NCBI RefSeq assembly: GCF_900289045.1
Contig: NZ_LT985188.1
Coordinates: 2,480,001 to 2,544,000 of the forward strand
Reading direction: 5' to 3'
Source of the DNA: Micropruina glycogenica
GTDB lineage: Bacteria > Actinomycetota > Actinomycetes > Propionibacteriales > Propionibacteriaceae
DNA length: 64,000 nt
Shown here: positions 3,971 through 24,072 of the stretch, piece after piece
Position numbering within the stretch: position 1 is the stretch's first letter
Layout of the letters: each line of letters opens with the position of its first letter
Notes under the pieces: generated by a model
The model's input: only the letters and a program-made list of their open reading frames with translations
Told to the model about the DNA's origin: nothing
Database searches by the model: none
Translations under genes and position numbers: made by a program

Positions 3971-6172
3971 TCAGAGGCTCACATCGGCCTTCGGCGGTCC
4001 GACCCGGTGCGCCAGCAGGCTGCCGTCGGTGAACTCCACCGCGTCGTCGAACCTGGCCTCGACGGTGCCGGCCCCGAACTGCTCGTCGTAGAGGCGAGCG
4101 TAGAGGCCGCCGCGGGCCAGCAGGTCGGCATGTGTGCCCTGCTCGACCAGCCGCCCTTCTTCGATGCCGAAGATCACGTCGGCGCGCATGATCGTCGACA
4201 GCCGATGGGCGATCGCGAAGGTCGTCCGGTTCGCCATCGCGCGCTCCAGTGCCTGCTGCACCAGCCGCTCGGTGGCACTGTCCAGTGCCGACGTGGCCTC
4301 GTCGAGAATCAGAATGCGCGGGTCTTTGATCAGCACCCGGGCGATCGCCAGACGCTGCTTCTCGCCGCCCGAGAGCCTGAACCCTCGCTCGCCGGTGATC
4401 GTCTCGTAGCCGTCGGCGAAACTCATGATGCGGTCGTGAATGTTGGCCGCCCGGCAGGCCTCGACGATCTCGGCGTCGGTGGCGTCGGCCCGGGCGTAGC
4501 GCAGGTTCTCGGTGATCGTGCCGTGAAACAGGTACGGCTCCTGGGTGACCATGCCCACGGCGTCGGCCAGCGAGTCGAGCCTGATGGTGCGCACGTCGGT
4601 GCCTTCGATCAGCACCGCTCCTTCGGTGGCTTCGTGCAGCCGCGGAATCAGGTAGGTCAGCGTGGTCTTGCCCGAGCCGGACGGCCCCACGATGGCCGCC
4701 AACTGGCCCGGTCGCACGGTCAGCGTGATGCCCCTTAGCGTCCACCGTTCGGCGTCGCTGATGGTGCCGTCGCCGTCGAGGTCGACGCCCTGCGGCGGGT
4801 CGTTCACCACCACCCCTGCGGCGAAGCCGGGCAGGGTCTCGGCCGCGACCACGGTGCAGCCCGAAGCGTCGGGAATGGAGGCGACTGCAGGTACTTCGAG
4901 AGTTGGGACGCTCAGCGCGCGGTAGTCACGGCCGAAGCGACTCGACCGGGTGCCGCGCGATGGGCGACCCGGTTCCGACGCCGCTGTGGGTGCAGGAGCC
5001 GCCATTGCCCGGGGTGCGGGGTACCGGAACCACACGTCGTGCAGAGTTACTTCGCCGCGAAACTCGTGCTTGGCGATCGCTTTGGCGTCGGGTGCGTCAG
5101 TGATCGCCGGTTGCAGGTCGAGGTACTCGAACAATCGGGCGAAGAGCGCGTAGGAGGTCTGCACGTCCATGGTGACGCGCATCAGCCCCACCAAAGGCTG
5201 CTGCAGCCGGGCCTGCAGGGTGGTGTAGGCCACGATCGTGCCGGCGGTGAGCACCTGGCCGCCGATCAGCGTGCCGCCGTTGATCAACAGACCCGCCACC
5301 AGGTAGACGATGGCCGGGGTCAGCCCGAAGAACGTCGACACGATCGAGAAGAAGGTCTGACCGGTCATCGCCTGCTTGAGCTGCAGGCGGCTCTGCCGGG
5401 CGTTGGCGCGGCGATAGCGGGCGATCTCGATGTCAGTACGGTTGAACACCTTGGCCAGTAGTACGCCCGACACCCCGAGCGACTCTTCGGTGATGGCCGT
5501 CATATCTGACAGCGACTCCTGGGTGCGTTTCTGCAGCCGCTTGCGCCGAGCGCCGACGCGGGTCTGAATCACCATGAACACCGGCATCAGCACCAGCGAA
5601 ATGATGGTCAGCTGCCAACTGAGCAGCACCATCGATACGAACGCGGCGATCACGGTCACCGTGTTGCTCAGCATCGAGGTGGCGGTCGAGGTGAGCACGT
5701 TGCGCACCCCTGACACGTCGTTGGCCAGACGCGACTGAATGTCGCCGGTCTTGGTCGAGGTGAAGAAGGCGAGCTCCATCTTCTCCAGATGCTCGAACAG
5801 GGCGACCCGCAGGTCGGCCATCGCCGAGTTGCCGATGCGGTTGGTCAGGTAGGTCTGGCCCACCCCGATCAGCGCGCTGACCAGGGGTATCGCGATCAGG
5901 CCGGCGACCAGCCAGTACAGCCGCTCGAGATCGGGCGACCCGATCGCGCCGTCGGCACCGACCGGAAAGAGGGCGTCGTCGAAGACCGCCCGGGTCAGAA
6001 ACGGGGCGATGGCGCCGAGCGAGGCCGACACCAGCACGGTGACCAGCACCAGCGCCAGCCACCAGCGGTACGGGGCCAGCAGGCTGCCGATGCGACGCAG
6101 CATCGGCTGGCCGGGCGAGCCGGCCACACCGGGCCGGGCGAGGTCTTCGGCGGGCATGGTGCATCGTGGCAC
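3971..6172 (-). CDS. ABC exporter (TMD-NBD) with EF-hand-like insert
   Basis: A 733-residue half-transporter with a six-helix membrane domain (~30-330) and an ATPase domain. The nucleotide-binding parts are complete: A-loop Tyr at ~384 (WFRYP), Walker A 496-503 (GPSGSGKT), Q-loop (VTQEPYLF), signature LSGGEKQR, Walker B ILILDEATSALD, and the H-loop His. The A-loop and Walker A are normally ~25 residues apart; here they are ~112 apart. The ~85 extra residues contain DLDGDGTISDAE (464-475), a canonical 12-residue EF-hand calcium loop. The family exports lipids, peptides or drugs; the substrate here is unknown. The start is uncertain: GTG 6172 is very close to a GGAGG, and ATG 6157 is the alternative. 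Confidence 0.9.
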   Translation of the reverse strand: MPRCTMPAEDLARPGVAGSPGQPMLRRIGSLLAPYRWWLALVLVTVLVSASLGAIAPFLTRAVFDDALFPVGADGAIGSPDLERLYWLVAGLIAIPLVSALIGVGQTYLTNRIGNSAMADLRVALFEHLEKMELAFFTSTKTGDIQSRLANDVSGVRNVLTSTATSMLSNTVTVIAAFVSMVLLSWQLTIISLVLMPVFMVIQTRVGARRKRLQKRTQESLSDMTAITEESLGVSGVLLAKVFNRTDIEIARYRRANARQSRLQLKQAMTGQTFFSIVSTFFGLTPAIVYLVAGLLINGGTLIGGQVLTAGTIVAYTTLQARLQQPLVGLMRVTMDVQTSYALFARLFEYLDLQPAITDAPDAKAIAKHEFRGEVTLHDVWFRYPAPRAMAAPAPTAASEPGRPSRGTRSSRFGRDYRALSVPTLEVPAVASIPDASGCTVVAAETLPGFAAGVVVNDPPQGVDLDGDGTISDAERWTLRGITLTVRPGQLAAIVGPSGSGKTTLTYLIPRLHEATEGAVLIEGTDVRTIRLDSLADAVGMVTQEPYLFHGTITENLRYARADATDAEIVEACRAANIHDRIMSFADGYETITGERGFRLSGGEKQRLAIARVLIKDPRILILDEATSALDSATERLVQQALERAMANRTTFAIAHRLSTIMRADVIFGIEEGRLVEQGTHADLLARGGLYARLYDEQFGAGTVEARFDDAVEFTDGSLLAHRVGPPKADVSL

Positions 6173-6280
6173 AGCCTCCGCTGGTCGAGCCGTCGCGACA
6201 GCGCCGCGTCATTCCGGGCTTGACCCGTAATCTCATGACCGCGCACCAAGAGATCCCGGCGAGATTGTTGAGACGCACCG

Positions 6281-6328
6281 CTGGCCGAGCTTGTCGAGAC
6301 TCAGGGTTTCGACAAGCTCAACCAACCC
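6281..6328. repeat. Dispersed repeat, inverted pair (family A)
   Basis: Two facing copies of a short repeat (CCGAGCTTGTCGAGAC and GTTTCGACAAGCTC) separated by about 5 nt form a hairpin just after the transketolase stop codon. Other copies of this family lie at 20199-20220, 21343-21365, 35074-35096, 42887-42909, 52675-52697 and 53362-53414. Here the hairpin could also end transkelotase transcription. An unrelated repeat-like stretch (GTCATTCCGGGCTTGACCC) lies beside it at about 6209. Confidence 0.6.
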
Positions 6329-6338
6329 ACGAACACGC

Positions 6339-8408
6339 TCAGCCGATCAGCGCCTTGGCCTTCTCGACCGCCGCCTCGGCAGTGACGCCGAACTTCTCGA
6401 ACAGCAGCGCACCGTCGGCGGACGCCCCGAAGTGGTCGATGCCGACCGCTTCGGTGTTGGCGCCCAGGAGGTCTTTCCAGCCCACCGGCACGCCGGCCTC
6501 GACGACCACTCTGGGCACGTCGGCGGGCAGCACCTGCTGCTGGTAGTCGTCGCTTTGGGCGTGGAACCATTCCACGCACGGCATCGACACCACGCGGGCC
6601 GCAATGCCGTCGGCCTCCAGTGCTTCGGCAGCCTTCACCGCCACCTGCAGCTCAGACCCGGTGCCGACCAGCACCACCTGCGGGTCGCCGGAGGCCTCTT
6701 TGAGCACGTAGCCGCCCATGGTGGTGTTGGACGCCGCCGCGAAGCCGGAATCTTCGGACCGGTCGAGAATCGGCAGGTTCTGCCGCGACAGAATCAGCGC
6801 TGCCGGCTTGTTCCAGGTGCGCAGGATCTGCGCCCACGCCCACGCGGTTTCGTTCGCGTCACCCGGACGCACCACGTCGATGTTGGGCATCAAGCGCAGG
6901 CTCATCACGTGCTCGATGGGCTGATGCGTGGGCCCGTCCTCGCCGACGCCCACGGAGTCGTGGGTCCACACGAAGGTGGTCGGGGCGTGCGACAGGGCCG
7001 CGAGTCGCGGCGTGGTTCGCATGTAATCGCTGAACACCAGGAACGTTGCGCAGTACACGCGGGTGAGCCCGTCCATGGTGATGCCGTTGGCGATGTTGCC
7101 CATGGCGTGTTCGCGGATGCCGAAGTGCAGTGTGCGGCCGCCGGGGGCGCCGGTGAACTCGTGGCTGCTGCGGTCGGACGGAATGAAGCTGTTGACCCCG
7201 GCCATGGTGGTGTTGTTCGAGCCGGCCAGGTCGGCGGAGCCGCCCCACAGCTCGGGCACCGGCTGGGCCAGCGCCGACAGCACCTTGCCGGACGCTGCGC
7301 GGGTGGCCATCGAGCCGGGCTCGAAGACGGGCAGCGAGGCGTCCAGGTCGGCGGGCGCCTCTTTGGCGAGCACCCGGTCGAGCAACTCGGCGTGCTCGGG
7401 CGACGCGCTTCGCCACGCCTCGTAGCGGGGATCCCATTCGGCATGCAGCTCCTTGGCCCGCTCGACGGCGTTGGCGCGCACCCAGTCGACCAGTTCGCTG
7501 TCGATGGCGAACGGCTGGTCTTCGAAGCCGAGTTCGGCCTTGAGCCCCGAGATCTCGTCGGCACCGAGCTTGCTGCCGTGCACGCTGTGGTCGCCGGCCT
7601 TGTTGGGCAGCGGCCACCCGATGATGGTGGTGACCTTGATGAAGTGCGGCTTGTCGGTGATCTGCTTGGCCCGCTCGATCACGTCGTAGAGCTCTGCCAC
7701 CTTCTCTTCGTAGGTGGTGAAGCCGTTGGTGAAGTCGACGTGGTAGGTGTCCCAGCCGTAGGCGTCGTAGCGGGCCTGCACGTCTTCTGAGAAGGCGATC
7801 TTGGTGTCGCCCTCGATCGAGATGCGGTTGTCGTCGTAGATCAGAAACAGGTTGCCCAGGTCGAGCGTGGCGGCCATCGAACTGGCTTCGCCCGACACGC
7901 CCTCTTGCATGCAGCCGTCGCCGGCGATGCAGAACACGTTGTGGTCGAAAACCGACTCGCCGGGCGCGGCCTGCGGGTCGTACAGCTCGCGCGACCGGCG
8001 GGCGCTCATCGCGAAGCCGACCGAGTTGGCCACGCCGGCGCCCAGCGGGCCGGTGGTGCACTCGATGCCCTTGGTGAGGCCGAACTCGGGGTGGCCCGGG
8101 GTCAGCGACCCCCAGGTGCGCAGGCTCTCGATGTCGTTCAGTTCGAGCCCGAACCCGTTCAGGTAGAGCTGCGCGTACTGGGTCATCGACGAGTGCCCGG
8201 CCGACATCACGAACCGGTCGCGGCCCAGCCAGCGGGGTTCGTTGGGGTCGACATTCATCACCTTGGCGTAGAGCAGGTAGGCGATCGGCGCCAGCGAGAT
8301 GGCCGTGCCGGGGTGGCCGTTGCCGACCTTTTCGACCGCATCGGCGGCCAGGACGCGGGCGGTGTCGACCGCCTTCGCATCTTGCTCTGACCAGGTGAGA
8401 TTGCTCAT
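6339..8408 (-). CDS. tkt: Transketolase
   Basis: A 689-residue thiamine diphosphate enzyme of the non-oxidative pentose phosphate pathway. It moves two-carbon ketol units between sugar phosphates in the cytosol. Visible motifs are [13 protein letters not shown] near the N-terminus, the TPP/Mg binding stretch [13 protein letters not shown]...YDDNRIS, and the transketolase signature [18 protein letters not shown]. The C-terminal domain is complete, and the length matches bacterial transketolases. The start is set by ATG 8408 ([10 protein letters not shown]), preceded by GAAGGGA; upstream extensions lack family character. The usual actinobacterial partners (tal, zwf, opcA, pgl) are not next to it in this window. 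Confidence 0.97.
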
Positions 8409-13747: not shown

Positions 13748-15238
13748 TCACCCCTGCTGGATCGCCGCCAGTTTGTGCTGCAACTCGACCGTGGCCGGGT
13801 GCAGGTGCCGGTAGATGTCGTACAACTCGTCGTAGCGCTCTTGGTTGTCGGGGTTGGGTTCGATGGTTCCCACTCGCGGCGACCAGTCGGCGTCTTCATC
13901 GATGAAGCCGCCGGCCACCCCGATCAGCATCGCGTCGCCGTAGCAGGCGCCCACCGACTGCTCGGTGATCTCTTGGGTGAGCCCCGTGATGTCGCTGATG
14001 ATCTGCGGCCACAGCCCGCCCTTGGTGCCGCCACCCACAGCGAACGCCTTGCGCCCCGAGCCGCCCGCGTCGTGCATGACTTCGAGCACGTGCCGTGCGC
14101 CGTAGGCGGTCGCCTCCATCAGCGCCCGGTACAGGTGACCGCGGCCGTGGTTCAGGGTCAGTCCGATCACCGTGCCTCGGGCGTTCGGGTCGAGCAGCGG
14201 CGTCCGCTCACCGGCGAAGTAGGGCAGGATCACGAGCCCGTCCGAACCGGGAGCGACCGCCTCGGCCTCTTTGCTCAGCTCGCCGAAGTCGGTGTTGCCG
14301 CAGACGTCGCGCAGCCACTTGGTGAGCGACCCGCTGGTCGCCATGCCGGACGCCAGGTTGTAGGTGTTCTCGAACAGGTGCGCGTTGCTCCACAACTGGG
14401 CCGACGGCAGTGATTCGTCGGTGACCAGCACGATCGACATCGTCGAGCCGTAGATCACCACCGCGTCGCCCGGCTTGCGCACCCCCACGCTCATCGCGTC
14501 GGCGAAGCTGTCCATGGTGCCGGCCGCCACCGGAATGCCCTCGGGCAGGCCGCTGCGCTGCGCACCCTCGACCGTGATGTGCCCGATCACCTCGGTGGGC
14601 CACTTCAGCTCGGGCATCGGCAGCCCCGGCGCGATGTCTTCGACCCACTTCTTGATCCAGCGGTTCTTGCCCACGTCGTACAGCGGCTCTGAGTAGCTGG
14701 CCGAGATGTGGTCGAGGTAGTACACGCCGGTCAACCGGTGCGCCAGAAACGTGTGCGCCATGAAGAAGTACCGGGTGCGGTCGTAGATCTCGGGTTCATG
14801 CCGGCGCAACCACAGGATCTTGGCGCCGATCGATTGCGCGTTCAGCGGGTTGCCGCACCGCTTGGTGATGCGGCTCTCACCGAACTTCTCGGTGAGCTCG
14901 TGCACCTCGGCCATGGCCCGGGTGTCGATGCCGTACAGAATGCCCGGCCGCAGCGGTACGGCGTTCTCGTCGGCGGGCAGAAAGCACGGCCCGATGCCGC
15001 TGATCGCCACGCCGGCGATCTCACCCTCACCGTCGGCGGCGGCCACGAGTTCGTCGCAGATGGCTTTGAAGTCGGCCCACCAAACGGTTTCGGCGTCGTG
15101 CTCGGCCCAGCCGTGTCTGGGCAGCGACAGGTGATGCGGTTGCTCCGAGAGCGCCACCACCTCGCCGTTCAGCCGCACCAGAACGCCCTTGGACGAGCCT
15201 GTTCCGATGTCGATACCGACCAGCAGTTGTTCGGCCAT
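13748..15238 (-). CDS. FGGY-family carbohydrate kinase (xylulokinase-like)
   Basis: A 496-residue ASKHA-fold sugar kinase. The N-terminal phosphate loop is GIDIGTGSSKGVLV. A Gly/Asp segment AGTMDSFADAMSVG and the C-terminal adenosine motif GGGTKGGLWPQIISDITG are present, as is the FGGY signature-2 region (YRALMEATAYGARHVLE). These enzymes phosphorylate pentuloses, polyols or glycerol; xylulokinase-like is the best general label. ATG 15238 is preceded by GAAGGGTG. The 240-bp leader upstream is rich in long-range inverted repeats. It is transcribed toward yitT, separated by REP-like repeats. Confidence 0.88.
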   Translation of the reverse strand: MAEQLLVGIDIGTGSSKGVLVRLNGEVVALSEQPHHLSLPRHGWAEHDAETVWWADFKAICDELVAAADGEGEIAGVAISGIGPCFLPADENAVPLRPGILYGIDTRAMAEVHELTEKFGESRITKRCGNPLNAQSIGAKILWLRRHEPEIYDRTRYFFMAHTFLAHRLTGVYYLDHISASYSEPLYDVGKNRWIKKWVEDIAPGLPMPELKWPTEVIGHITVEGAQRSGLPEGIPVAAGTMDSFADAMSVGVRKPGDAVVIYGSTMSIVLVTDESLPSAQLWSNAHLFENTYNLASGMATSGSLTKWLRDVCGNTDFGELSKEAEAVAPGSDGLVILPYFAGERTPLLDPNARGTVIGLTLNHGRGHLYRALMEATAYGARHVLEVMHDAGGSGRKAFAVGGGTKGGLWPQIISDITGLTQEITEQSVGACYGDAMLIGVAGGFIDEDADWSPRVGTIEPNPDNQERYDELYDIYRHLHPATVELQHKLAAIQQG

Positions 15239-15309
15239 GAGATCACCCTTCGCTGCGTGACGCTTCCGGTTCGGTCGAACCCAGTGTCGTGCGTCTGAGG
15301 TGACTTGCA

Positions 15310-15420
15310 CAGGTGGCGGTGTTCAGGGGCGCGCACCGCAAGGCCGACGAGGCAGGTGCACCGGGCCGTCCATCGACGAAGCAGAACACCGCGCAGTGGG
15401 TGCCTGGACGCCGCCACCTG
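15310..15420 (-). promoter_or_regulatory. Structured leader region of the FGGY kinase gene
   Basis: CAGGTGGCGG (15310-15319) pairs with CCGCCACCTG (15411-15420), and nested inside GGTGTTC (15318-15324) pairs with GAACACC (15384-15390). The nested arms overlap by two bases, so the two pairings partly compete. It lies 70-180 nt upstream of the kinase start. It could be an untranslated leader with alternative folds or just GC-rich coincidence. No gene is evident in 15239-15479. Confidence 0.35.
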
Positions 15421-15479
15421 CCAACTGACTCGGACCCATCACACTGGGGCAGGAAGTGGCACCGGGCTAGGGTCTGGGC

Positions 15480-16448
15480 ATGCGCATGCTGCTCACCGGA
15501 AGCAACGGCTTCGTGGGCGGCCACATCGCCGCAGCGGCTCGCCGACGCGGTTGGACGGTGCTGGGCCTGGGTCGCCAACCGGCGCCGGCAACGGCGGTTG
15601 ATCAATATGTGCGGCACGACCTCGGCGAGCCGCTCACGCTGAACGAAGCGGTGGACGTCGTGGTGCACTGCGCCGCCCTGGCCTCACCGTGGGCCCCTCC
15701 CGAGGCCTACCAGCGAGCCAACGTCGACGCCACCCGCAACGTGCTCGATTGGGCCGAGGGGCACGGCACCCCGCCGGTGCACTTCGTCTCGTCGTCGAGC
15801 GTGTTCTACACGGCCGCCGACCAGTTGAACCTCACCGAGCAGTCGCCGATTCCGGCCCCGGCCGACCAGCTCAACGCCTACTCGCGTACCAAGCTGGCCG
15901 GCGAACGGTTGGTCGGGCGGTACCCGGGCGCCTGGAGCGTGCTGCGCCCGCGGGCGGTGTTCGGCCCCGGTGACACCGTTCTGCTGCCCCGGGTGGTGGC
16001 CGCCGCCCGAGCCGGACGGCTGCCGCACTTCGTGCGCCGCGACCGGGCACCGGTGCTGGTCGATCTGACCCACGTCGAGGTGGTGGCCGGCTACGTGTGC
16101 GAGGCCGTGGCGCGCGGCGTGACCGGACCGGTCAACCTGACCAACGGCGAGCCGGTGCAGTTGTACCCGTTTCTGTTCTCGCTGCTCGACGACCTCGGGG
16201 TGCCCAGGCCGCGGCGTCACGTGTCGGTGGGGATGGCGATGGCGCTGGCCCGGGCGTCCGAGATGGTGTCGGCCCGACTGATGAACTACGCCGAGCCGCC
16301 GATCACCACGTTCGGGGTGGCGATGTTCGCCTACTCGAAGACGTTCGACATCACCCACTGCCGGGCCCTGCTGGGTGAGCCGGCCATGAGTATCGAAGCC
16401 GGCCGCCGCGACCTGGTGGCCTGGTGGCGGAGCAACGGTGTGGGCTAG
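15480..16448 (+). CDS. NAD(P)-dependent extended SDR (epimerase/3-beta-HSD type)
   Basis: A 322-residue extended short-chain dehydrogenase. TGSNGFVGG at residues 6-14 is the dinucleotide loop, and the catalytic Tyr134 and Lys138 are in AYSRTK. VSSSSVFY is the usual Ser strand. It resembles the 3-beta-HSD/OleD-like reductases that act on lipidic keto or hydroxy groups, as well as sugar epimerases. It opens the plus-strand half of the 15.5-21.3 kb cluster. The start is leaderless: TAGGGT at 15468-15473, then 6 nt, then ATG. Its stop overlaps the start of the damaged glycosyltransferase gene by 11 nt. Confidence 0.87.
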   Translation: MRMLLTGSNGFVGGHIAAAARRRGWTVLGLGRQPAPATAVDQYVRHDLGEPLTLNEAVDVVVHCAALASPWAPPEAYQRANVDATRNVLDWAEGHGTPPVHFVSSSSVFYTAADQLNLTEQSPIPAPADQLNAYSRTKLAGERLVGRYPGAWSVLRPRAVFGPGDTVLLPRVVAAARAGRLPHFVRRDRAPVLVDLTHVEVVAGYVCEAVARGVTGPVNLTNGEPVQLYPFLFSLLDDLGVPRPRRHVSVGMAMALARASEMVSARLMNYAEPPITTFGVAMFAYSKTFDITHCRALLGEPAMSIEAGRRDLVAWWRSNGVG

Positions 16449-17192
16449 ATCGATCGCCTGGGCGCTCGTCGGTGGCTATGCCGCACTCAGCGCGACTCGC
16501 ATCGCACTGGCGGTGCGCAACTGGCGAGGGGCCGCAGGGCACGAGGCGACCGAGCCACCCGAGCAGACCCCCGGGGGATCACAGTGCTACAGCCGATTCT
16601 GTCGGGCGATCCGGCGCTGCCCCGCGTGCTGGCCGAAAACCTGGCCAACCAGCCGTCCGCCCGGTTCATCTGGCTGGTGGACGCCGACGACCCCGAGGGC
16701 CTGCGCATCACGACCGAACTGGCCGACGGCAACCCGCGGGTCGAGGTGCTTCATTGCCCGCCCTGCCCGCCGCTGACCAACCCGAAGGTGTTCAAGCTGG
16801 CCCTGGGCGAGCCGCACTGCACCGACCTGGTGGCGGTGCTCGACGACGACACGGTGCTGCCGCCCGGCGCCCTGGACAGGGCCCGCGCTGCGCTCAGCGA
16901 GGCCGACCTCGCCACCGGGCTGCCCTGGTACGACAGCGGCGTCGGCCCCTGGAACGCGCTGGTGGCGGGCTTCGTCAACGGCAACGCCCTGGTGACCTAC
17001 TTTCCGCTGCTCGGCAACCACGGGCCGGCGGTGCGGGTGCGAACCCTGCGCGAGGCCGCGATCGCGCTCCCGCGCGCGCTCCGTCTGCCCAGGGCTCCGC
17101 TGCAACGCTTCGCCGCCATGGTGGCCGCGAGCGACCCGCTGGCCGCCGCCGAACGGACGCTGGCCCAGGTCACGTCCGATCGTGCGAGCTAG
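16438..17192 (+). pseudogene. GT2-type glycosyltransferase, frameshifted and C-terminally short
   Basis: The first ~46 codons from GTG 16438 encode a membrane-type N-terminus (ARSIAWALVGGYAALSATRIALA). The glycosyltransferase core continues in another frame from about 16578 (ITVLQPILSGDPALPR..LAENL). The switch needs one extra G at the tract CCCCCGGGGG (16568-16577). The core has a donor-binding LDDDTVLP and VNGNALVTYFPLL, then diverges and stops after ~200 residues. GT2/GT21-like enzymes usually continue with a second acidic motif and RW-type motif, which are absent. A shorter product could start at GTG 16584. Loss of function, a phase-variable tract and sequencing error are all possible. 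Confidence 0.65.
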
Positions 17193-17865
17193 TGGGTGCC
17201 AGTACCAGTCGCTCGGTGGCCGCCACCATGGCCTCGAAGTAGGCGTCGGGTTCGGTCATGCCGGGCATGCCGATGGGGTTGAGCAGTTCGTCGTACAGTG
17301 CGCCGTCGAGCAGGTGCCAGGCCGCCAGGCCGGCCAGCACGGTCTGCTCGCTCACCTCGACCCCGGCGAGCCGCAACAGGTTCGGCAACCCGGGCACGGC
17401 ACATGTCGCCGGGTCGAGCAGGGGGTCGGGCACCTGGCCCGCCGCCTCGGCGTCGGCGCCCAGGCGCAGCAGCAGCACGTGCAGGGCGTAGTGCTGGTCG
17501 GGCCTCGGGTGGCGCTGGGTCAGCACCGTGTTCTGAATCAGCTTCCACTCGTGCCGGTGGGCCAGGGTCCAGTCGCGCATCGTGTAGGCGAAGGCACGCC
17601 AGCGGCCGGCCAGGTCGGCGCGCGGAACGGCGTCGTGGGCCGCTTGAATCGACGCGGCCAGGTCGGCATGGGCGTGCTGCACCAGCAGGTCGAGCAGGTC
17701 TTCGCGCTTGGTCACGTAGCGGTACAGGGCGGACGGCACCAGGTCGAGTTCACGCGCGACGCCGCGAATGGTCAGCGCGTCCGCACCGCCCTCGGCGAGC
17801 AGTCGCTGGCCGGCCGCAATGATCGCGGACTCGGTGGTGTCGCGGTGCTCGGCACGTGTCGGCAT
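17170..17865 (-). CDS. TetR/AcrR family regulator
   Basis: A 231-residue repressor-type protein. The N-terminal HTH (ALTIRGVARELDLVPSALYRYVTKREDLLDLLV) is typical, followed by an all-helical ligand domain. It lies inside the lipid-type cluster, and its 3' end overlaps the glycosyltransferase remnant by 23 nt tail to tail. Two GAAC-N3-GTTC elements directly upstream of its start (17887-17897 and 17936-17956) are good operator candidates. It probably controls itself and the cluster in response to an acyl or aromatic ligand. Confidence 0.9.
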   Translation of the reverse strand: MPTRAEHRDTTESAIIAAGQRLLAEGGADALTIRGVARELDLVPSALYRYVTKREDLLDLLVQHAHADLAASIQAAHDAVPRADLAGRWRAFAYTMRDWTLAHRHEWKLIQNTVLTQRHPRPDQHYALHVLLLRLGADAEAAGQVPDPLLDPATCAVPGLPNLLRLAGVEVSEQTVLAGLAAWHLLDGALYDELLNPIGMPGMTEPDAYFEAMVAATERLVLAPTSSHDRT

Positions 17866-17886
17866 GTCACATCACTCCCAAGTAGT

Positions 17887-17956
17887 GAACACCGTTCTTG
17901 CATTGTGCCAGGATGGGTGAATAATGGAAACGCTAACAGAGAACATCGTTCGCTGT
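17887..17956. promoter_or_regulatory. Two candidate TetR operators
   Basis: GAACACCGTTC at 17887-17897 and GAACATCGTTC at 17941-17951 share the dyad GAAC-N3-GTTC and start 54 bp apart. The second extends to a 21-bp dyad, 17936-17956, with outer arms ACAG/CTGT. Both lie just upstream of the TetR gene in an AT-richer patch. Confidence 0.6.
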
Positions 17957-18031
17957 TCGGCTCGGGGGGACGTTGGGCACCCGGGGGGTGTGCTCCAGGC
18001 GGGCCAGAACGCGACATCGCATCTGCTGGTC

Positions 18032-18061
18032 GGCCCGGGTTGTGGTGACGCAGCCCGGGCC
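18032..18061 (-). terminator. Hairpin after the adenylate-forming enzyme gene
   Basis: GGCCCGGG (18032-18039) and CCCGGGCC (18054-18061) form a perfect 8-bp GC stem with a 14-nt loop, 30 nt beyond the stop codon at 18091. It lacks a U tract. It would separate the cluster's three-gene run from the TetR gene. Confidence 0.5.
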
Positions 18062-18090
18062 CAAGATCTTTGGCTTGTCGCCAACCCCGA

Positions 18091-19362
18091 TCACCGTTCG
18101 CGGCGCACTCGACGTCGCTTGTCGATGCTCGATTCCACCGGCCACGGCCGGCCACTGATGGCCGGCTCGGCGAACCCGCGCGAGCGCAGCAGGCGTTGCA
18201 GCGCCCGATGCGCCGAGGCCTGCGCGTTCGAGGGCCGTACCGCCAACCCCAGGCTGCCGTCCAGGCGCTGCACCAGGCGAAAGTCGTGCACCCCCGGCGC
18301 GGCCAGCACCGCGTTGCGCACGAAGTCGGCGAACAGGGGCCGCGTGGCGCCCGCCTGGTCGGGCAGCCACAGCACGTCGTCGGCCCGGCCCTCCACCCTG
18401 GCCACCGTGGCGAACGCCGACCCGCACGGGCAGTCGGGCACCCCGGGCAGCAGTACGTCGTTCAACCGGTAGCGAATGATCGCCTGAGTGGTGCGGTACA
18501 GGTCGGTGATCACCGGCGTGAAGCGTCCGGACGACTGGTCGATCACCTCACGCTCGACGTGCACCAGGTCTTCGTTGAGGTGCAGGATGCCGTGCTCGCA
18601 ACTGATGCCGAGAAAGCCCTCGGTGGCCTGGTAGATCTGCCGCGCGGGGCACCCGAAGCCGGACGCCACCCGCGAGGCCACGTCGTCATCGAGCACGTCC
18701 GCGATCGAGTAGATGGTGTGCGGAGCGAGGTCGGGCCTCGACACGCTCGACCGACGGGCGGCCAGGTCGTCGAGCACCTGAGGGGGCGCGGCCAGCACGG
18801 TGGGCGCGAAGGCTTGCAGACGCTCGGCGATCGCATCGGGCGGCAGCGCGAGATCGACGTAGCAGAACGTGATGCGTCCACCGTGCACCGCCTGGTACAG
18901 CGGGCCGCCCGAGCGCAGCACCAGCGCCACCCGGGCAGGTTCGCGCAGGCTGGGCAACGCCTTGGCCAGCATGACGCCGGCCCAGCGGGCCTGCTCGGCT
19001 GGGGTGGTGAGAAAGACGCCCTGCTGCCCCGACGTGCCCGACGACAGGCCGATCGACACGCCTTTCAGGGTGGCCTCGAAACTCCGATCGGCCTCGGCCG
19101 CGCGGGCCGCTGCCAGGCATTGGGCCAGGTCGAGGCCGCGGTCGTTGAGCCCGTCGAAGTGCCGCAACCAGGTGGCCTTGTCGAGCACCGGAAAGTCGGC
19201 CAGCGACGTGCCGGCGGCAGCGTAGAAGGGGTAGACCCGGCGGGCGCGGTTCAACACGTGCTGCAGCCGCCGTTGCTGATGCCGCTCGAGTTGCGCGCGG
19301 GTGCCGAAGCGGCGCGACCGGGTGGCCAGCGCGGCAGCCAGCACCCGCCAACGGTCAACCAC
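18091..19362 (-). CDS. Adenylate-forming enzyme, CapK/F390-synthetase-like
   Basis: A 423-residue ANL-type enzyme shorter than acyl-CoA synthetases and related to the phenylacetate-CoA ligase / coenzyme F390 synthetase branch. Its ATP loop is GLSSGTSGQQGVF. QATEGFLGISCEHG is the A5-type motif, and YRLNDVLLPG plus VEGRADDVLWL are the A7/A8-type segments. It should activate a carboxylate as acyl-AMP; substrate and acceptor are unknown. GTG 19362 overlaps the MBL gene's stop by 8 nt, so the two are translationally coupled. I recall a sporadic, conserved neighbourhood built around this enzyme class with KAS III-type and reductase genes, but could not check it here. Confidence 0.8.
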   Translation of the reverse strand: MVDRWRVLAAALATRSRRFGTRAQLERHQQRRLQHVLNRARRVYPFYAAAGTSLADFPVLDKATWLRHFDGLNDRGLDLAQCLAAARAAEADRSFEATLKGVSIGLSSGTSGQQGVFLTTPAEQARWAGVMLAKALPSLREPARVALVLRSGGPLYQAVHGGRITFCYVDLALPPDAIAERLQAFAPTVLAAPPQVLDDLAARRSSVSRPDLAPHTIYSIADVLDDDVASRVASGFGCPARQIYQATEGFLGISCEHGILHLNEDLVHVEREVIDQSSGRFTPVITDLYRTTQAIIRYRLNDVLLPGVPDCPCGSAFATVARVEGRADDVLWLPDQAGATRPLFADFVRNAVLAAPGVHDFRLVQRLDGSLGLAVRPSNAQASAHRALQRLLRSRGFAEPAISGRPWPVESSIDKRRRVRRER

Positions 19363-20182
19363 CGACGTACCCTCGGGCCTCGGCGATCGATGCGGTGCAG
19401 TGCGACGGCACGATCAGCAGGTGCGGATGCTCCGCGTGCAGCCTGGCCAGTTCGGCCACGATCGCTTCGTAACGCTCACGGTCGGCCCGCAGCACCCGTA
19501 ACGGCAGTTCGCCGTGGGTGAAGGCGCGGCGATGCCAGACGGCGTCACCGACCAGCAGCAGTCCGTCAGAACCTTCGGCGGGTAGCCACAACCCCAATTG
19601 GCCGGGTGTGTGCCCGGGCAGCCGCACGACCAGCGCCGAGTCGTCCCCGAACAGGTCGTGGCCCACCTCAAGCAGCCCGCCGAGCCCGGTGCTTCGCAGC
19701 GCAAGCTCGTCGAGGCTCAGCAGGCGCTGCTCGGCGTCGGCCGGCAACAGGTCGGGCACCAGCGCGTGCGCCGCGTTGCGCCACGCCGAGCGTTTGCGCC
19801 AATCGGGCGGCAGTTCACCCGGCCCCACCACGATGCGCGCGTCGGTGAAGTCCAACAGACCGGCGACGTGGTCGCCGTGCAGGTGCGACAGCACGATCAG
19901 CCGCACGTCGCCGGGGGCGAGGTCGCGCTCGGCCAACTGGGCGAGCACCGAGTCGGCCGGGCCGCAGGTCACCGGCAGCAGCCGGGCGTACAGCTGGTAG
20001 GGCCAGCGCGCGGTGGCGGTGTGAAACCGTGGTGCATAACCGGTGTCGTACAGCACCACTCCCCCGTCGGGGTGGTCGAGCAACGCCACCAGCGACGGAA
20101 ACTCGATCGATCGCCACGCTCCGCCACGGCGCACGAAGCGCTCCAGTTGCACGCAGTGGCCCGCCACCAACAGCTCAGTCAT
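19355..20182 (-). CDS. MBL-fold metallo-hydrolase
   Basis: A 275-residue metallo-beta-lactamase-fold protein with a complete metal site: LSHLHGDHVAG (HxHxDH), PGHTPGQ, GDAVW and VPSHC. The layout is like lactonases and other small ester or thioester hydrolases of the glyoxalase II/AHL-lactonase type. It lies between the condensing enzyme and the adenylate-forming enzyme, and overlaps the latter. A role as the thioester- or lactone-cleaving step of the cluster is reasonable, but this is inference from position. Confidence 0.87.
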   Translation of the reverse strand: MTELLVAGHCVQLERFVRRGGAWRSIEFPSLVALLDHPDGGVVLYDTGYAPRFHTATARWPYQLYARLLPVTCGPADSVLAQLAERDLAPGDVRLIVLSHLHGDHVAGLLDFTDARIVVGPGELPPDWRKRSAWRNAAHALVPDLLPADAEQRLLSLDELALRSTGLGGLLEVGHDLFGDDSALVVRLPGHTPGQLGLWLPAEGSDGLLLVGDAVWHRRAFTHGELPLRVLRADRERYEAIVAELARLHAEHPHLLIVPSHCTASIAEARGYVGG

Positions 20183-20198
20183 CCAGAGCCCACCGTGC

Positions 20199-20220
20199 GT
20201 TGGTCGAGCCTGTCGAGGCC
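20199..20220. repeat. Dispersed repeat (family A)
   Basis: GTTGGTCGAGCCTGTCGAGG lies in the 88-bp gap between the KAS III and MBL genes. It is a single copy of the family that recurs in other intergenic regions of the window. Its position inside an apparent operon suggests a late insertion that did not break transcription. Confidence 0.55.
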
Positions 20221-20270
20221 CCCGGGCGGTGAGCAGGTCGGGTCGGCAGCTGCAGAATCCATCGGGCCTC

Positions 20271-21260
20271 CTAGAACCTCAGCACTGCGGCACCGAACAT
20301 CAGGCCCGCACCGGTACCGATCAGCAGGGCCAGATCGCCGCGGCGCAGCCGTCCGGTCTCGACCGCAGCGGCCAGCGCGGTGGGCATCGACGCCGACACC
20401 TGGTTGCCGCGCTCGGCCAGCAGGTCGACCACCGACTCGGGCCGCACCCCGAGTCGTTCGCGCAAGAACCGCAGGCCCAGCGCGCTGGCTTGGTGCGGCA
20501 CCACGACCGCGACCTCGTCGAGTGTCACTCCCGCCTCGTCGAGCGTCTCGGCCAGAAACGCCGGCATGGCTCTGGCCACGAGTTTCATCATGCCCAGGCC
20601 GTCCATGGCGAACAGGTAGTCGGAGGCCTCGGGCGGCGGCGTGACGGTGTTCCAGCGAGTGCCGCCGGCCGGAATGCGGCACAACTGCGCCGCACTGGGG
20701 TAGGTGCGCAACCGCAACGACAGCAGGCTCGAACCCTGCCCCGCGGGCCCGACCACCGCGGCCGCCGCCCCGTCGCCGAACAGCGCGCTGGATTCGAGGT
20801 CGGCGTGGTTGAGCCCCTTCGACGCCACGTCGACGGCCACGACACCGACCCGGTGCCACATTCCGGCACCGATGCCGAAAGCGGCCTGCTGCACACCGGT
20901 CAGAAAGCCCAGGCACGAGGCGTTCACGTCGAACGCCTGCAGCGCGCCGTCGGCGGCGCCCAGCCGACGTGCGACCAGTACCGCCGTGGTGGGCATGGGT
21001 TGTTCTGGGGCTACGGCCGCCACGATCAGGGCGTCCAGATCGTCGATCACCAGGCCGGCCCGCCGCAGCGCCTGATCGAGCGCCGCCGCAGCCATGCTCA
21101 CCGACGAGTCGTGGGGCCCCACCCACTGTCGCACGCTGACACCCGACCGGGCCTGTGTGGTGCCGGGGGTGCGTGCGTACCGCTGGTCGAGTTCGGCCGA
21201 GGTGACCCGCACCGCCGGGGTGTGACTGCCCACCGACAGCAGGCGAACGGGCAGCGGCAT
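20271..21260 (-). CDS. Beta-ketoacyl synthase III (KAS III/FabH-like)
   Basis: A 329-residue thiolase-fold condensing enzyme. The active-site triad is complete: Cys116 in FDVNASCLGFLTG, His in VVPHQAS and Asn in RGNQVSASMP. FabH proteins start fatty acid chains from acyl-CoA; related enzymes (OleA, secondary-metabolite KAS III) join two acyl groups head to head. The surrounding genes are not FAS II genes, so a specialised role is likelier than housekeeping FabH. It heads the minus-strand run KAS III - MBL - adenylate-forming enzyme. The ATG at 21260 follows TAGCCT (21267-21272) by 6 nt, a leaderless promoter. Confidence 0.87.
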   Translation of the reverse strand: MPLPVRLLSVGSHTPAVRVTSAELDQRYARTPGTTQARSGVSVRQWVGPHDSSVSMAAAALDQALRRAGLVIDDLDALIVAAVAPEQPMPTTAVLVARRLGAADGALQAFDVNASCLGFLTGVQQAAFGIGAGMWHRVGVVAVDVASKGLNHADLESSALFGDGAAAAVVGPAGQGSSLLSLRLRTYPSAAQLCRIPAGGTRWNTVTPPPEASDYLFAMDGLGMMKLVARAMPAFLAETLDEAGVTLDEVAVVVPHQASALGLRFLRERLGVRPESVVDLLAERGNQVSASMPTALAAAVETGRLRRGDLALLIGTGAGLMFGAAVLRF

Positions 21261-21342
21261 GCCCGGAGGCTAGCGCACGCGAACGAGAGCTGGACGTCGG
21301 CTCCCCCACCGCCGGTGGAGTGGCTCGAGATCCCGGCCGGGT

Positions 21343-21365
21343 GTCGACAAGCCCGACCAACGTTG
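21343..21365. repeat. Dispersed repeat (family A)
   Basis: GTCGACAAGCCCGACCAACG lies just beyond the pullulanase stop codon at 21388, in the 127-bp gap before the KAS III promoter. It is a diverged copy of the family described at 6281-6328. No gene is present in this gap. Confidence 0.5.
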
Positions 21366-21387
21366 CGAGCTCAACCGGCGCAGCGAC

Positions 21388-24072
21388 TCAGCGGGGTTCG
21401 ACGAACACCGCGAAGCTGCGAGCCGGCACCGAGGCCCACTGGCCCTCGACCCGGGCCCGTTTCACCACCGGGTCGTGGCCGCCGGCCTGCACGGGGTGCA
21501 GCACGAACCGGCTGCTCAGGCCGGGGATGCGCAGCCGAACCGCGATCGGGGTCCCGTTGAACACCGTGACCAGGCCCGTCCACTGCTGCTGCACCGGCTC
21601 GCCGGCGCGGTCGTCGATGCGCATGACGATCACACCCGGGGGCTGATGGGCGGTGTTGCTCACCGGAAAGGTAACCTTGGTGCGCACTGCGTGCCCTGAA
21701 GCGAGGCGAAACAGCCTGGTCGACGCCCGCAGCCGCAACAGTTCGAGGGCCGCGAGGTGCGCCTGCTCGATGTAGAAAGGGGACGGCTTCTGCGCCGGGT
21801 CGGCCAGAAACGGCTGAAAGTAGCTCCACTTCGGGCCGTTGTCGTCGTGCGGCGGCAGGCCGGCGCCGAAACCGTTGTCGGTCATCGTCCAGTCGAGAAA
21901 GTTGAACCAGTCGCCCGAGTTGTACGAGTTTCGGTCAAGGCTCTTGCTGCGCAGAATGTCGGTGCCCGCGTGCCACATCACCGGGGCCTGGCCCAGCGTG
22001 GCCAGCGCCAGGCACAGCGTGTTCATGCGCACCCGCTCAGCCATCGGGGTGTCGGGGCGCAGCTTGAGGGTGAGGGCGTCGAACAGGGTCTCGTTGTCGT
22101 GGGCGTCCACGTAGTTGATCGTCTCGTCGGGCTCGGCGGCGTAGCCGGCGGGCTGGCCGTTGTACTCGAGCTCGTCGCCCCGCACGAACGCGTGGCGGCT
22201 GTTCGACGGCAGCCAGTAGTCGCGCAGGTTGCCGGTCAGGCCCAACTGAATCAGGTCGGTGTCGAGATTCAGCCGGTCGTGCTGGGTGTAGCCGTCGCCG
22301 TTCACCCACGCGTCGTTCGAAGCAGTGAAGAGGCCGGTGCCGAAGCCCTGGCCGCGCGGATCGTCGTCGAACGGCCCTCCCCCACGGACGGCGTCGCGCA
22401 GCCGGTCGTTGAAGGTGCCGATGCCGGTGCCGGCCAGGTTGCCCTGCCGCGCCTGCACGAAGCGGGCGTCGTTGGCCACCTCGCCGAAGTTCCAGCCCTC
22501 GCCGTAGATCGTCACCTGGGTGCCGTCCACGCCGTCGATCTCGGGCGTGAGCGCATCGAGCGCGGCGCGCACGGCAAGCATGTTGGCCCGGCTGTGATGA
22601 CCCATCAGGTCGAACCGAAAGCCGTCGACCTTGTAGTCGCGGGCCCAGAGCACCACCGAATCGATCATCAGCTTCTGGGCCATGGCGTGCTCGGTGGCCA
22701 CGTTGGGGCAGCAGGTGGAGTGCTCGGTGAACCCCAGCGGGTTGAGCCGGTGGTAGTAGCCGGGCACGAGGCGGTCGAGCACCGACTTGGTGTTCTGGCC
22801 GAAGCTCGCGGTGTGGTTGAACACCTGGTCGAGCACCACCCGCAACCCCATGCCGTGCAGTGCGCCCACCATGGTGCGAAACTCCGTCACCCGGCCCGAC
22901 CCCTCGGCGCTGGCCAGGCTCGAGCAGAACGACCCCTCGACGGCCTGATAGTGCCACGGGTCGTAACCCCAGTTGTAGGGGTTGCCCACCACGGTCAGCC
23001 GAATCAGCCGCTGCTGGGTGGGACTGTCGGGCGGCAGTGATCGCAGCTGGGCCTTGGCCGGCGGCTGCTGCCGGTCGCGGCTCTCTTCGACGGTGGCATT
23101 GTCGAACACCGGCAGCAACTGCACCGTGTTCAGCCCGGCCGCGGCCAGCCTGCTCAAGTGCCGGGTGCCCTGGCTGTCGCGGGCGAAGGCGAGAAAGCTC
23201 CCCCGCTCGTCTTCGGGCACAGTCTTGTCGTTGATCGAGAAGTCACGCACGTGCAGTTCGTAGATCACCTGGTCGACGGCGTGCTGCAGCCGGGGCGACG
23301 GGGCGTGACTCCACTGGGCGGGCATCAGGTCGGGGTCGTCCAGGTCGACGATCACCGAGTGGGTCGAGTTCACCGTCAGCGACACCGAGTAGGGGTCGGT
23401 GACCTGGTTGGTGACCACGCGCCGTCCGGACGGCGCGAACACCGCCACCTCCCACCGGTAGCGCGCCCCGCGCCAGTCGGGAGCGCCGGTGACCGCCCAG
23501 CAGCCGTCGGGTTCGCGGGTTGCCGGCAGCGGACGGCCCGGTGCGTGCAGGTCGTCGCCGACGCACCACAGCCGCAGTCCGGCCTGACGGGCCGTGGGCG
23601 CCCACACCCGCAGGGTCGGCACATCGCCTGCCCAACTCACGCCCAGTCGTGCAGCGGTGGCCGCGGCGTACAGTTCGTCCAGCACACCGGGAAGTTGCAG
23701 AGAGCCGGCGTTCACCAGCCGTCCCGAGGGCGCGTGCAGGCTGAGGGCCACCTGACCGCGCAGAATGTCTTCGGCGATGGCCGCCGTGGCGGGCATCAGC
23801 CGCAGAGCCAGGCAGCCGCCCAGATGTGGCCGCTGCGCCAGCACCGATTCGGGGAAGCCCTCGGGGTCGAGCCGCAGGTCTGCGGTGTTCCAGTTCACCG
23901 GTTCGCGGGCGGCGGGATCGATGCCGCCGTCGGGCGACCAGTGCAGTCGCCAGTCGAGTGCGTGCGGATCGACGCCGACGGGCACCGCGTCGACCGGCCA
24001 AGCGATCAGCCCACGCGACACCCAGTGGCCGGGGGCCAGGGTGAGGTCGGGTGCGCCGATCAAAGTGCGCAT
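21388..24072 (-). CDS. Type I pullulanase-type alpha-1,6-glucosidase
   Basis: An 894-residue GH13 debranching enzyme. An N-terminal beta domain (~1-160) precedes a CBM48-like module ([16 protein letters not shown]). The catalytic barrel has the type I pullulanase motif YNWGYDP ([13 protein letters not shown]), nucleophile Asp in [10 protein letters not shown], acid Glu in [13 protein letters not shown] and the stabilising Asp in [12 protein letters not shown]. It hydrolyses alpha-1,6 branches of glycogen-type glucans. No signal peptide is seen, so it is probably cytosolic and part of glycogen turnover. ATG 24072 overlaps the YbjQ stop as TGATG, and the two genes share one leaderless promoter. 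Longer upstream frames are YbjQ read in another frame. Confidence 0.93.

Follow-up and report, generated by a model that had tools for sequence, protein, structure and literature searches.

Which of six neighbouring genes in the actinomycete Micropruina glycogenica belong to one pathway, and what might that pathway make? The genes lie at positions 15480–21260 of a 64,000-nucleotide stretch (contig NZ_LT985188.1, positions 2,480,001–2,544,000; hereafter the window) of a 3.84-Mb genome assembled as a single contig. An earlier note, made from the sequence alone, described them as a co-functioning cluster of acyl or lipid type. Family scans bore out the six genes with their positions and families, and the overlaps of 11 nt between the reductase and glycosyltransferase genes (16438–16448) and of 8 nt between the hydrolase gene and the gene for an adenylate-forming enzyme (19355–19362) are as the note described them. 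The idea of a common function gained support; the six-gene boundary stood only in part. The conserved unit is a four-gene core with variable accessory genes rather than the six genes listed: the TetR regulator adjoins it only locally, and the glycosyltransferase, dead in this strain, represents one module among several alternatives.

The core consists of a ketoacyl synthase III (KAS III) condensing enzyme (20271–21260, minus strand; PF08541/PF08545), an extended short-chain dehydrogenase/reductase (SDR) resembling OleD and HpnA (15480–16448, plus strand; 322 aa), a lactonase-like hydrolase of metallo-beta-lactamase fold (MBL; 19355–20182, minus strand; Pfam Lactamase_B) and a PaaK-fold adenylate-forming enzyme (ADE; 18091–19362, minus strand; TIGR02304). 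All four open reading frames (ORFs) are full-length in the window and retain the residues that, from family knowledge, we take to be catalytic. Those of the SDR, KAS III and MBL had already been reported as intact, and they proved invariant across the aligned cluster proteins, in counts that include ORFs with N-terminal extensions: C116, H256 and N286 of the KAS in 76/76 rows; S104, Y134 and K138 of the SDR in 78/78; and H100, H102, D104, H105, H191 and D213 of the MBL in 79/79, with H261 in 78/78. In the ADE, E248 is present in 81/81 rows and K415 in 78/78. We regard the core as a real, widespread, apparently mobile and uncharacterised pathway of lipid type. Our preferred reading, to which we give a probability of roughly 0.55, is that KAS III, SDR, MBL and ADE form one pathway to a fatty-acyl-derived, oxygenated lipid backbone, and that lineage-specific accessory enzymes add a polar head to it or modify its chains. 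No publication recognisable as describing the gene set was found; subscription papers and preprints were mostly outside the coverage, so that a prior description is possible.

The unity of the core is best seen in its conservation. With the ADE as seed, a scan of GTDB species genomes found 82 relatives. The best 80, many of them metagenome-assembled genomes (MAGs), were kept as loci, and 76 of the 80 contain all four core genes. The loci span 14 phyla by NCBI rank, with Melainabacteria counted apart, and records that by their titles are not MAGs occur in seven: Actinomycetota, Pseudomonadota, Bacillota, Fusobacteriota, Cyanobacteriota, Chloroflexota and Verrucomicrobiota. The neighbourhood is thus conserved far beyond close relatives; the note had named confinement to such relatives as a finding that would speak against it. 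The incomplete cores are those of L009, L040 and L058, which all touch contig ends, and of L048. Upstream of the last core gene seen, L040 and L058 have 2.5 and 8.8 kb, respectively, without an SDR or KAS match. In the myxococcal locus L048, a radical-SAM/B12-domain gene (L048:7336-8949) lies between the KAS and SDR genes, and no MBL is recognisable.

Since the first scan was seeded with the ADE, plasmids were scanned with KAS III as the seed (tblastn, E ≤ 1e-30). In all 21 records matched, an ADE gene lies within a few kilobases of the KAS gene, and the full core was found in all 18 examined at the sequence level, the other three (Ketogulonicigenium) being covered by ADE coordinates only. Among the best 20 ADE plasmid records (44 weaker ones were left out), 17 are shared with these 21, and the Rhizobium rhododendri plasmid (L202), found through ADE seeding, carries the full core. 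The same coupling holds within the family Propionibacteriaceae, in which 35 of 147 genomes have any ADE match at E ≤ 0.001 and 11 a strong one (at least 224 bits; the next scores 74.7): all 11 also have a KAS match within about 2.5 kb. In the remaining 136 genomes the best KAS match is at most 143.4 bits, in the range of FabH; the KAS score alone does not separate the two types, the weakest cluster KAS scoring 143.3 bits. Pairwise distances of the core proteins are correlated for all six protein pairs (r 0.80–0.86 over 75 rows; none of 500 row permutations reached such values), partly reflecting shared species history.

The spread of the core is patchy. At E ≤ 1e-50, the window's phylum gave matches in 2 of 396 sampled genomes and the phylum of genome G150 in 8 of 398, counts that include the two centre genomes themselves. 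The KAS tree described below unites distant phyla, placing Acidobacteriota with Actinomycetota and Fusobacteriota with Streptococcus and Jonesia, a pattern suggestive of the unit having been transferred. In the probiotic strain Escherichia coli Nissle 1917, a seven-gene version (L189:4001-10882, with the core at 4001-8088) comprising KAS, SDR, MBL, ADE, PAP2, a sterol desaturase/hydroxylase family protein and an acyl-CoA desaturase sits between narI and the tyrosine tRNA genes/purU. Of 5426 complete E. coli genomes, 672 have a match to this version, and in 671, about one in eight, the match covers at least 80% of its length. A four-enzyme pathway of lipid type is present in 14 phyla and in these E. 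coli genomes, and no paper found assigns a product to it.

Plasmids classed as conjugative carry the core as well, namely Ketogulonicigenium pYP1, Novosphingobium pTHN, Rhizobium anhuiense pRA_T24_1 and Rhizobium pMK-2 (L188, L192, L193 and L195, respectively).

Is the condensing enzyme simply a spare FabH that lies by chance beside unrelated genes? The window KAS III does score on FabH models, although below their cut-offs (TIGR00747, 210.5 bits, cut-off 292.1); its best model is PRK07204 (278.2 bits, cut-off 402), and it reaches 113.4 bits with the OleA-type model PRK09258 (cut-off 285). All 40 cluster KAS proteins compared match PRK07204 at E ≤ 1e-10, and general FabH models match them too. 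A tree of 62 rows, among them 33 of the 80 loci, four plasmid loci and the window, was built with quick Shimodaira–Hasegawa-like approximate likelihood-ratio (SH-aLRT) values, without bootstrap, and rooted on OleA by choice. In it the cluster KAS proteins form one group (93, unstarred), with CorB and MxnB nested within it; the FabH clade (96, starred) is the sister of this group, and OleA (98, starred) is more distant. Outside the cluster, the window genome has a second KAS III (C1:1284787), and at least one further KAS III-type match was found elsewhere in each of 20 cluster-bearing genomes. The KAS III thus does not group with housekeeping FabH, which the note had named, in combination with the other genes associating elsewhere, as a result that would speak against its proposal, and we reject a housekeeping FabH identity on the basis of the tree position, the scores below FabH cut-offs and the second KAS III. 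The FabH-model scores and the sister position are what a chance neighbourhood has in its favour; conservation over 14 phyla, reciprocal seeding and the separation from FabH in the tree already contradict it, and we give it practically no credence.

Propionibacterium sp. oral taxon 192 has several further adjacent KAS III-type matches (G148:C1:1061357-1067265) apart from its cluster.

CorB and MxnB are also the closest solved chains to the window KAS III by sequence, at 33–34% identity, and the predicted structure (predicted local distance difference test, pLDDT, 95.7) has its best fold matches in MxnB and CorB, narrowly before FabH; PqsD is among the further fold matches. In published work, MxnB and CorB were placed with FabH and not with OleA (PMC4578411), they join two acyl chains (PMC5724707, PMC4578411), and MxnB does so with two carrier-bound beta-keto chains that enter through two tunnels (PMC5724707). 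Glu117 of OleA and Glu105 of PpyS deprotonate the first acyl chain, whereas MxnB and CorB have V94 instead (PMC4578411). In the window KAS III, M89 aligns with V94 of CorB, the counterpart of PpyS E105. At this position the 76 cluster KAS rows hold I in 47, M in 14, L in 14 and H in 1. A MAFFT alignment has E there in all three OleA rows and all five other PRK09258 rows, whereas CorB and MxnB have V and the 14 FabH rows have F, T, L, M or A. The three OleA reference rows were obtained with a PRK09258 search; one of them matches the structures 3row/3s21 over its full length (664 bits), and entry 3s23 is OleA of Xanthomonas campestris (PMC5724707). Since the glutamate is replaced by I, M or L in the cluster proteins, OleA-type activation of a plain acyl chain appears unlikely, and a malonyl or 3-oxoacyl nucleophile is the more likely one. 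CorB and MxnB, the ketosynthases that form the pyrones of corallopyronin and myxopyronin by condensing two beta-ketoacyl chains, share the hydrophobic residue at this position, and the cluster KAS has a kinship of sequence and fold with them. In contrast to the cluster KAS, CorB and MxnB serve pathways of polyketide synthase/nonribosomal peptide synthetase megasynthetases (PMC5724707).

The remaining three core enzymes bear on the parallel with OleABCD that the earlier note had drawn. For alignments that in some cases are subsets picked by ORF length and spread, all 26 cluster SDRs match OleD models, with the lowest best E-value of all models, and more weakly HpnA (26/26) and a thioester-reductase model (25/26); a sterol-4-alpha-carboxylate 3-dehydrogenase is the top solved structure for the SDR profile. 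The best NCBIfam model of the window SDR is OleD (NF042422), at 132.8 bits against a cut-off of 580. Pfam and sequence similarity to solved structures both assign the window hydrolase to the MBL fold. Its best match is to AttM-type lactonases (62.2 bits, cut-off 390), so that it falls under the curated cut-off for the acyl-homoserine lactone (AHL) lactonases AttM/AiiA and shares their metal-site motif; the cluster MBLs match the AttM-type AHL lactonase model in 27/27 cases and 4-pyridoxolactonase in 26/27. The window ADE passes the model TIGR02304, 'F390 synthetase-related protein' (318.8 bits, cut-off 251.9), which all 34 cluster ADEs match at E ≤ 1e-10. Its predicted structure (pLDDT 93.0) fits PaaK1 (2y27) best, together with other PaaK-like ligases, and the aryl-acid ligases NatL2, AjiA1 and ClxA are among its fold neighbours. 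To our knowledge, TIGR02304 and PRK07204 are names without a known function; the window ADE lies over the cut-off of the former and the window KAS under that of the latter. If the preferred reading is true, a function would follow for the orphan family TIGR02304.

The parallel with OleABCD therefore holds in one respect and fails in another. A condensing enzyme of thiolase fold, an OleD-like SDR, an AMP-forming enzyme and a hydrolase occur together in both, and the logic of condensing, reducing, activating and hydrolysing fits the families. Membership or close mechanistic identity does not follow: the cluster KAS lies outside the OleA clade and lacks the catalytic glutamate, the SDR scores far below the OleD cut-off, the ADE is of PaaK type and not of OleC type, the hydrolase is an MBL and not an alpha/beta-fold protein like OleB, and the cluster has extra genes of head-group type. 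We reject membership on these grounds; the note was right that hydrolysis and activation are served by families other than those of Ole. An Ole-type head-to-head pathway run by such other families is a separate matter. Two acyl chains would be condensed, reduced and adenylated to a beta-lactone, which the lactonase-like MBL would open or decarboxylate, giving a beta-lactone, olefin, ketone or alpha-alkyl-beta-hydroxy acid in which a polar head is not the point. The uniform OleD matches of the cluster SDRs, the lactonase matches of the MBLs, the presence of an adenylating enzyme and the joining of two acyl chains by the nearest solved KAS enzymes all suit this pathway. However, the OleA/PpyS base is absent (M89 in the window; I, M or L in all but one of the 76 rows), no OleD match over the cut-off, admittedly a strict one, occurs in 33 cluster genomes, and an olefin product leaves the accessory genes of head-group type unexplained. 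On balance we think it unlikely.

No PRK09258 (OleA-type) protein over the cut-off was present in 20 cluster-bearing genomes. Two genomes, G193 and G187, have high-scoring OleD-like genes, with no recognisable oleABCD operon among the long ORFs examined.

What distinguishes the preferred reading is the company that the core keeps. Interchangeable modules, several of them from families of lipid head-group enzymes, accompany it, a feature that we regard as new. The count took in both strands up to 6 kb from the core, a range in which some genes may be chance neighbours (for example the GT4 of L012, on the opposite strand and with 22% identity). ATP-grasp and/or GNAT genes form the commonest module (36/80 loci, or 37 with one mixed locus), followed by glycosyltransferase genes of families GT21 and/or GT1 (27/80), GT4 and/or PAP2_C (4/80) and PAP2, fatty-acid hydroxylase and/or desaturase (3/80); the mixed locus (1/80) joins the ATP-grasp/GNAT kind with the PAP2/hydroxylase/desaturase kind. 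Plasmid loci add a sulfotransferase (Ketogulonicigenium and Paracoccus), a DUF3419 protein (Rhizobium pMK-2, 145.8 bits; two Shinella oryzae; Rhizobium rhododendri) and, in some cases, a Rieske protein. Ceramide glucosyltransferases belong to GT21, PAP2_C is found in sphingomyelin synthases, and BtaA, an enzyme of betaine-lipid synthesis, is a DUF3419 member. The best models of the GT4 of L022 are glucosaminyl-phosphatidylglycerol synthase, glucosyl-diacylglycerol synthase and BshA, all well below their cut-offs. The common denominator of these accessory families would be the modification of lipid hydroxyls, and for this reason we favour a backbone with an exchangeable head. A comparable context is given by HpnA and HpnI: the window SDR resembles the former and the accessory GT21 the latter (80.4 bits, cut-off 310), with both scores far below the cut-offs and no systematic search for hopanoid genes made. 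For the FASII (type II fatty acid synthesis) clusters of Kuenenia and Desulfotalea, attachment of head groups was proposed as the role of an acyl-CoA-ligase-like gene that bears the annotation F390 synthetase (PMC2649909); the likeness lies in a ligase so annotated within a lipid cluster.

Alternatively, the product could be a small diffusible molecule, a signal or an antibiotic, formed as in pqsABCDE. Synthesis would start with an AMP ligase, the KAS III would extend with malonyl units, the MBL would release the product as a thioesterase, the SDR would reduce it, and glycosyltransferases, GNAT proteins or a sulfotransferase would tailor or detoxify it. KAS III, AMP ligase and MBL are the pqs set. 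The fold matches of the KAS include PqsD, GT1 resembles macrolide-type glycosyltransferases, the ADE has aryl-acid ligases among its fold neighbours, and TetR genes adjoin the KAS gene in five annotated plasmid records, which suggests that regulation by TetR types may recur. However, the cluster MBL is nearest to lactonases and the ligase belongs to another family, pqs is not known to include an SDR, and the GT21/HpnI-like, PAP2_C, fatty-acid hydroxylase, desaturase and DUF3419 accessories indicate lipids. Moreover, the annotated records examined show no recurrent exporter next to the core; some of them have sugar and sulfate importers. We consider a pqs-like product distinctly unlikely.

A pathway consistent with the preferred reading can be outlined, with substrates, order and product proposed from family evidence. 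The KAS III would load an acyl chain on Cys116 and condense it with an activated thioester (malonyl- or 3-oxoacyl-ACP/CoA, ACP being acyl carrier protein), without deprotonation of a plain acyl chain as in OleA, to yield a (2-alkyl-)3-oxoacyl product. The MBL would then cleave a thioester or lactone, and the OleD-like SDR would reduce the 3-oxo to a 3-hydroxy group. The PaaK-fold ADE would adenylate the carboxylate and hand it to a nucleophile, either the molecule's own hydroxyl, giving a beta-lactone, or an amine or hydroxyl of a head group. In the window lineage, GT21 and GT1 would finally glycosylate the product. A bolder form of the preferred reading, which we put forward tentatively and think somewhat less likely to be right than wrong, is that the core makes the backbone of a hitherto unrecognised class of bacterial membrane lipids, with a function like that of diacylglycerol or ceramide, scattered horizontally over at least 14 phyla and fitted with lineage-specific polar heads (sugars, sulfate, amino-acid- or betaine-like and phospho-heads). 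If true, a new class of membrane or signalling lipid would exist in gut, oral, soil and plant-associated bacteria.

Several observations weigh against the preferred reading. The ATP-grasp/GNAT module, although the commonest, is the least explained and has no established lipid-head role, and nine of the 80 loci hold none of the modules looked for (L040, L058, L072 and L074 are short or at contig ends). BLAST with chosen examples was the main means of finding the accessory families, which makes the list incomplete and biased, and the lipid role of GT21, PAP2_C and DUF3419 members is general family knowledge. No ACP gene was found near the core with E. coli AcpP as the tblastn query (0 matches), one weak probe. 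Two plasmids depart from the four-gene pattern: pMPPla107 of Pseudomonas amygdali (L119) has an ADE of TIGR02304 type alone, with no KAS, SDR or MBL nearby, and on pBASL58 of Pseudomonas sp. Leaf58 (L085) the core genes are interspersed over 10 kb and the SDR is shorter. Finally, GT21 is intact in only one of the five core-bearing genomes of the window's genus, which argues that glycosylation is not essential to the role of the core.

The glycosyltransferase of the window, which the note had already called damaged, is so in two ways. The ORF at 16584–17192 (plus strand) is preceded by out-of-frame GT21 sequence from 16438, with the frame change near 16557–16584 and the start region in another frame. 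The GT21 remnant (16438–17009, plus strand; PF13506, 31.3 bits), of the HpnI/ceramide-glucosyltransferase type, represents the N-terminal half only: it is 63% identical to residues 50–191 of the 383-aa homologue in L001, where the match ends. From 17010 on (junction about 17009/17010), the same ORF continues in frame into an EryCIII-like GT1 remnant (17010–17192, plus strand) that matches residues 353–403 of the 414-aa GT1 of the sister genome G017 (L122:10120-11364, minus strand) with 57% identity over 51 aa (E 5e-05). In G017, SDR-GT21-ORF196-GT1 faces KAS-MBL-ADE, and both glycosyltransferases are separate long ORFs. The window ORF thus passes from the N-terminal half of GT21 straight to the end of GT1: the second half of GT21, the whole of ORF196 and the greater part of GT1 have been lost by deletion. 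A search of the window genome gave no further GT21 homologue. With the glycosylation step lost, a bare backbone would be expected in this strain unless another enzyme takes over.

The loss might be taken to mean that the window cluster is a decaying remnant without present function. Both glycosyltransferases are destroyed, and ORF196, which stands between them in G017, has been lost as well; four of the five core-bearing genomes of the genus have a broken GT21 or lack it; G040 (80% complete) is the one of six genus members without an ADE match; and in the G058 draft the KAS and MBL matches are fragmented. However, each of the window's four core ORFs has its full length and its catalytic residues, and three relatives without a GT21 match (G058, G073 and G087; drafts 84–89% complete) still keep the core, as far as the drafts show. 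Decay is thus improbable in our view; the core has outlived the glycosylation module in most of the genus. The window strain and its relatives amount to a natural experiment, with the same core in the presence and absence of sugar-attaching genes.

In G058, the SDR and ADE genes are some 11.7 kb apart (L185:1030-12700), with other genes between them that look, by eye, ABC-transporter- and NanE-like; the stretch contains a run of N, so that the linkage there may be a scaffold join. The GT21 of G017 contains an insert, roughly 50 residues long, that consists of short PAGMT/SAGVT-like repeats (L122:12850-13150; DNA CCCGGCGGACGCC).

The TetR gene (17170–17865, minus strand; family scans) lies outside the conserved unit. 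Candidate operators had been proposed for it; the 236 bases upstream hold only short or GC-rich inverted repeats. TetR-family matches to the window protein occur in one of the 80 loci (L061), and a counterpart beside the cluster is absent from the Propionibacteriaceae relatives examined. With no good palindrome and no conservation, we reject this TetR as the pathway regulator with operators of its own. No sigma-70-like promoter was detected in 15300–21500, a weak test in such an organism.

A gene of similar annotation, possibly related to the ADE family, comes from a virulence screen of Pseudomonas syringae pv. actinidiae, which lists a transposon mutant in a 'Coenzyme F390 synthetase' gene (IYO_RS29540; PMC9823363). 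A carbohydrate-kinase-like gene (judged by eye; window 13748–15310) adjoins the SDR gene, as does one in G017 (L122:14388-15929), and serves as a synteny marker for the orthologous locus. Elsewhere in the window, where Tandem Repeats Finder (TRF) reported no array with a period of about 270 bp, the 13-mer GTACCACTGGTAG occurs four times (1517, 1787, 2054 and 2327) at a spacing of about 270 bases.

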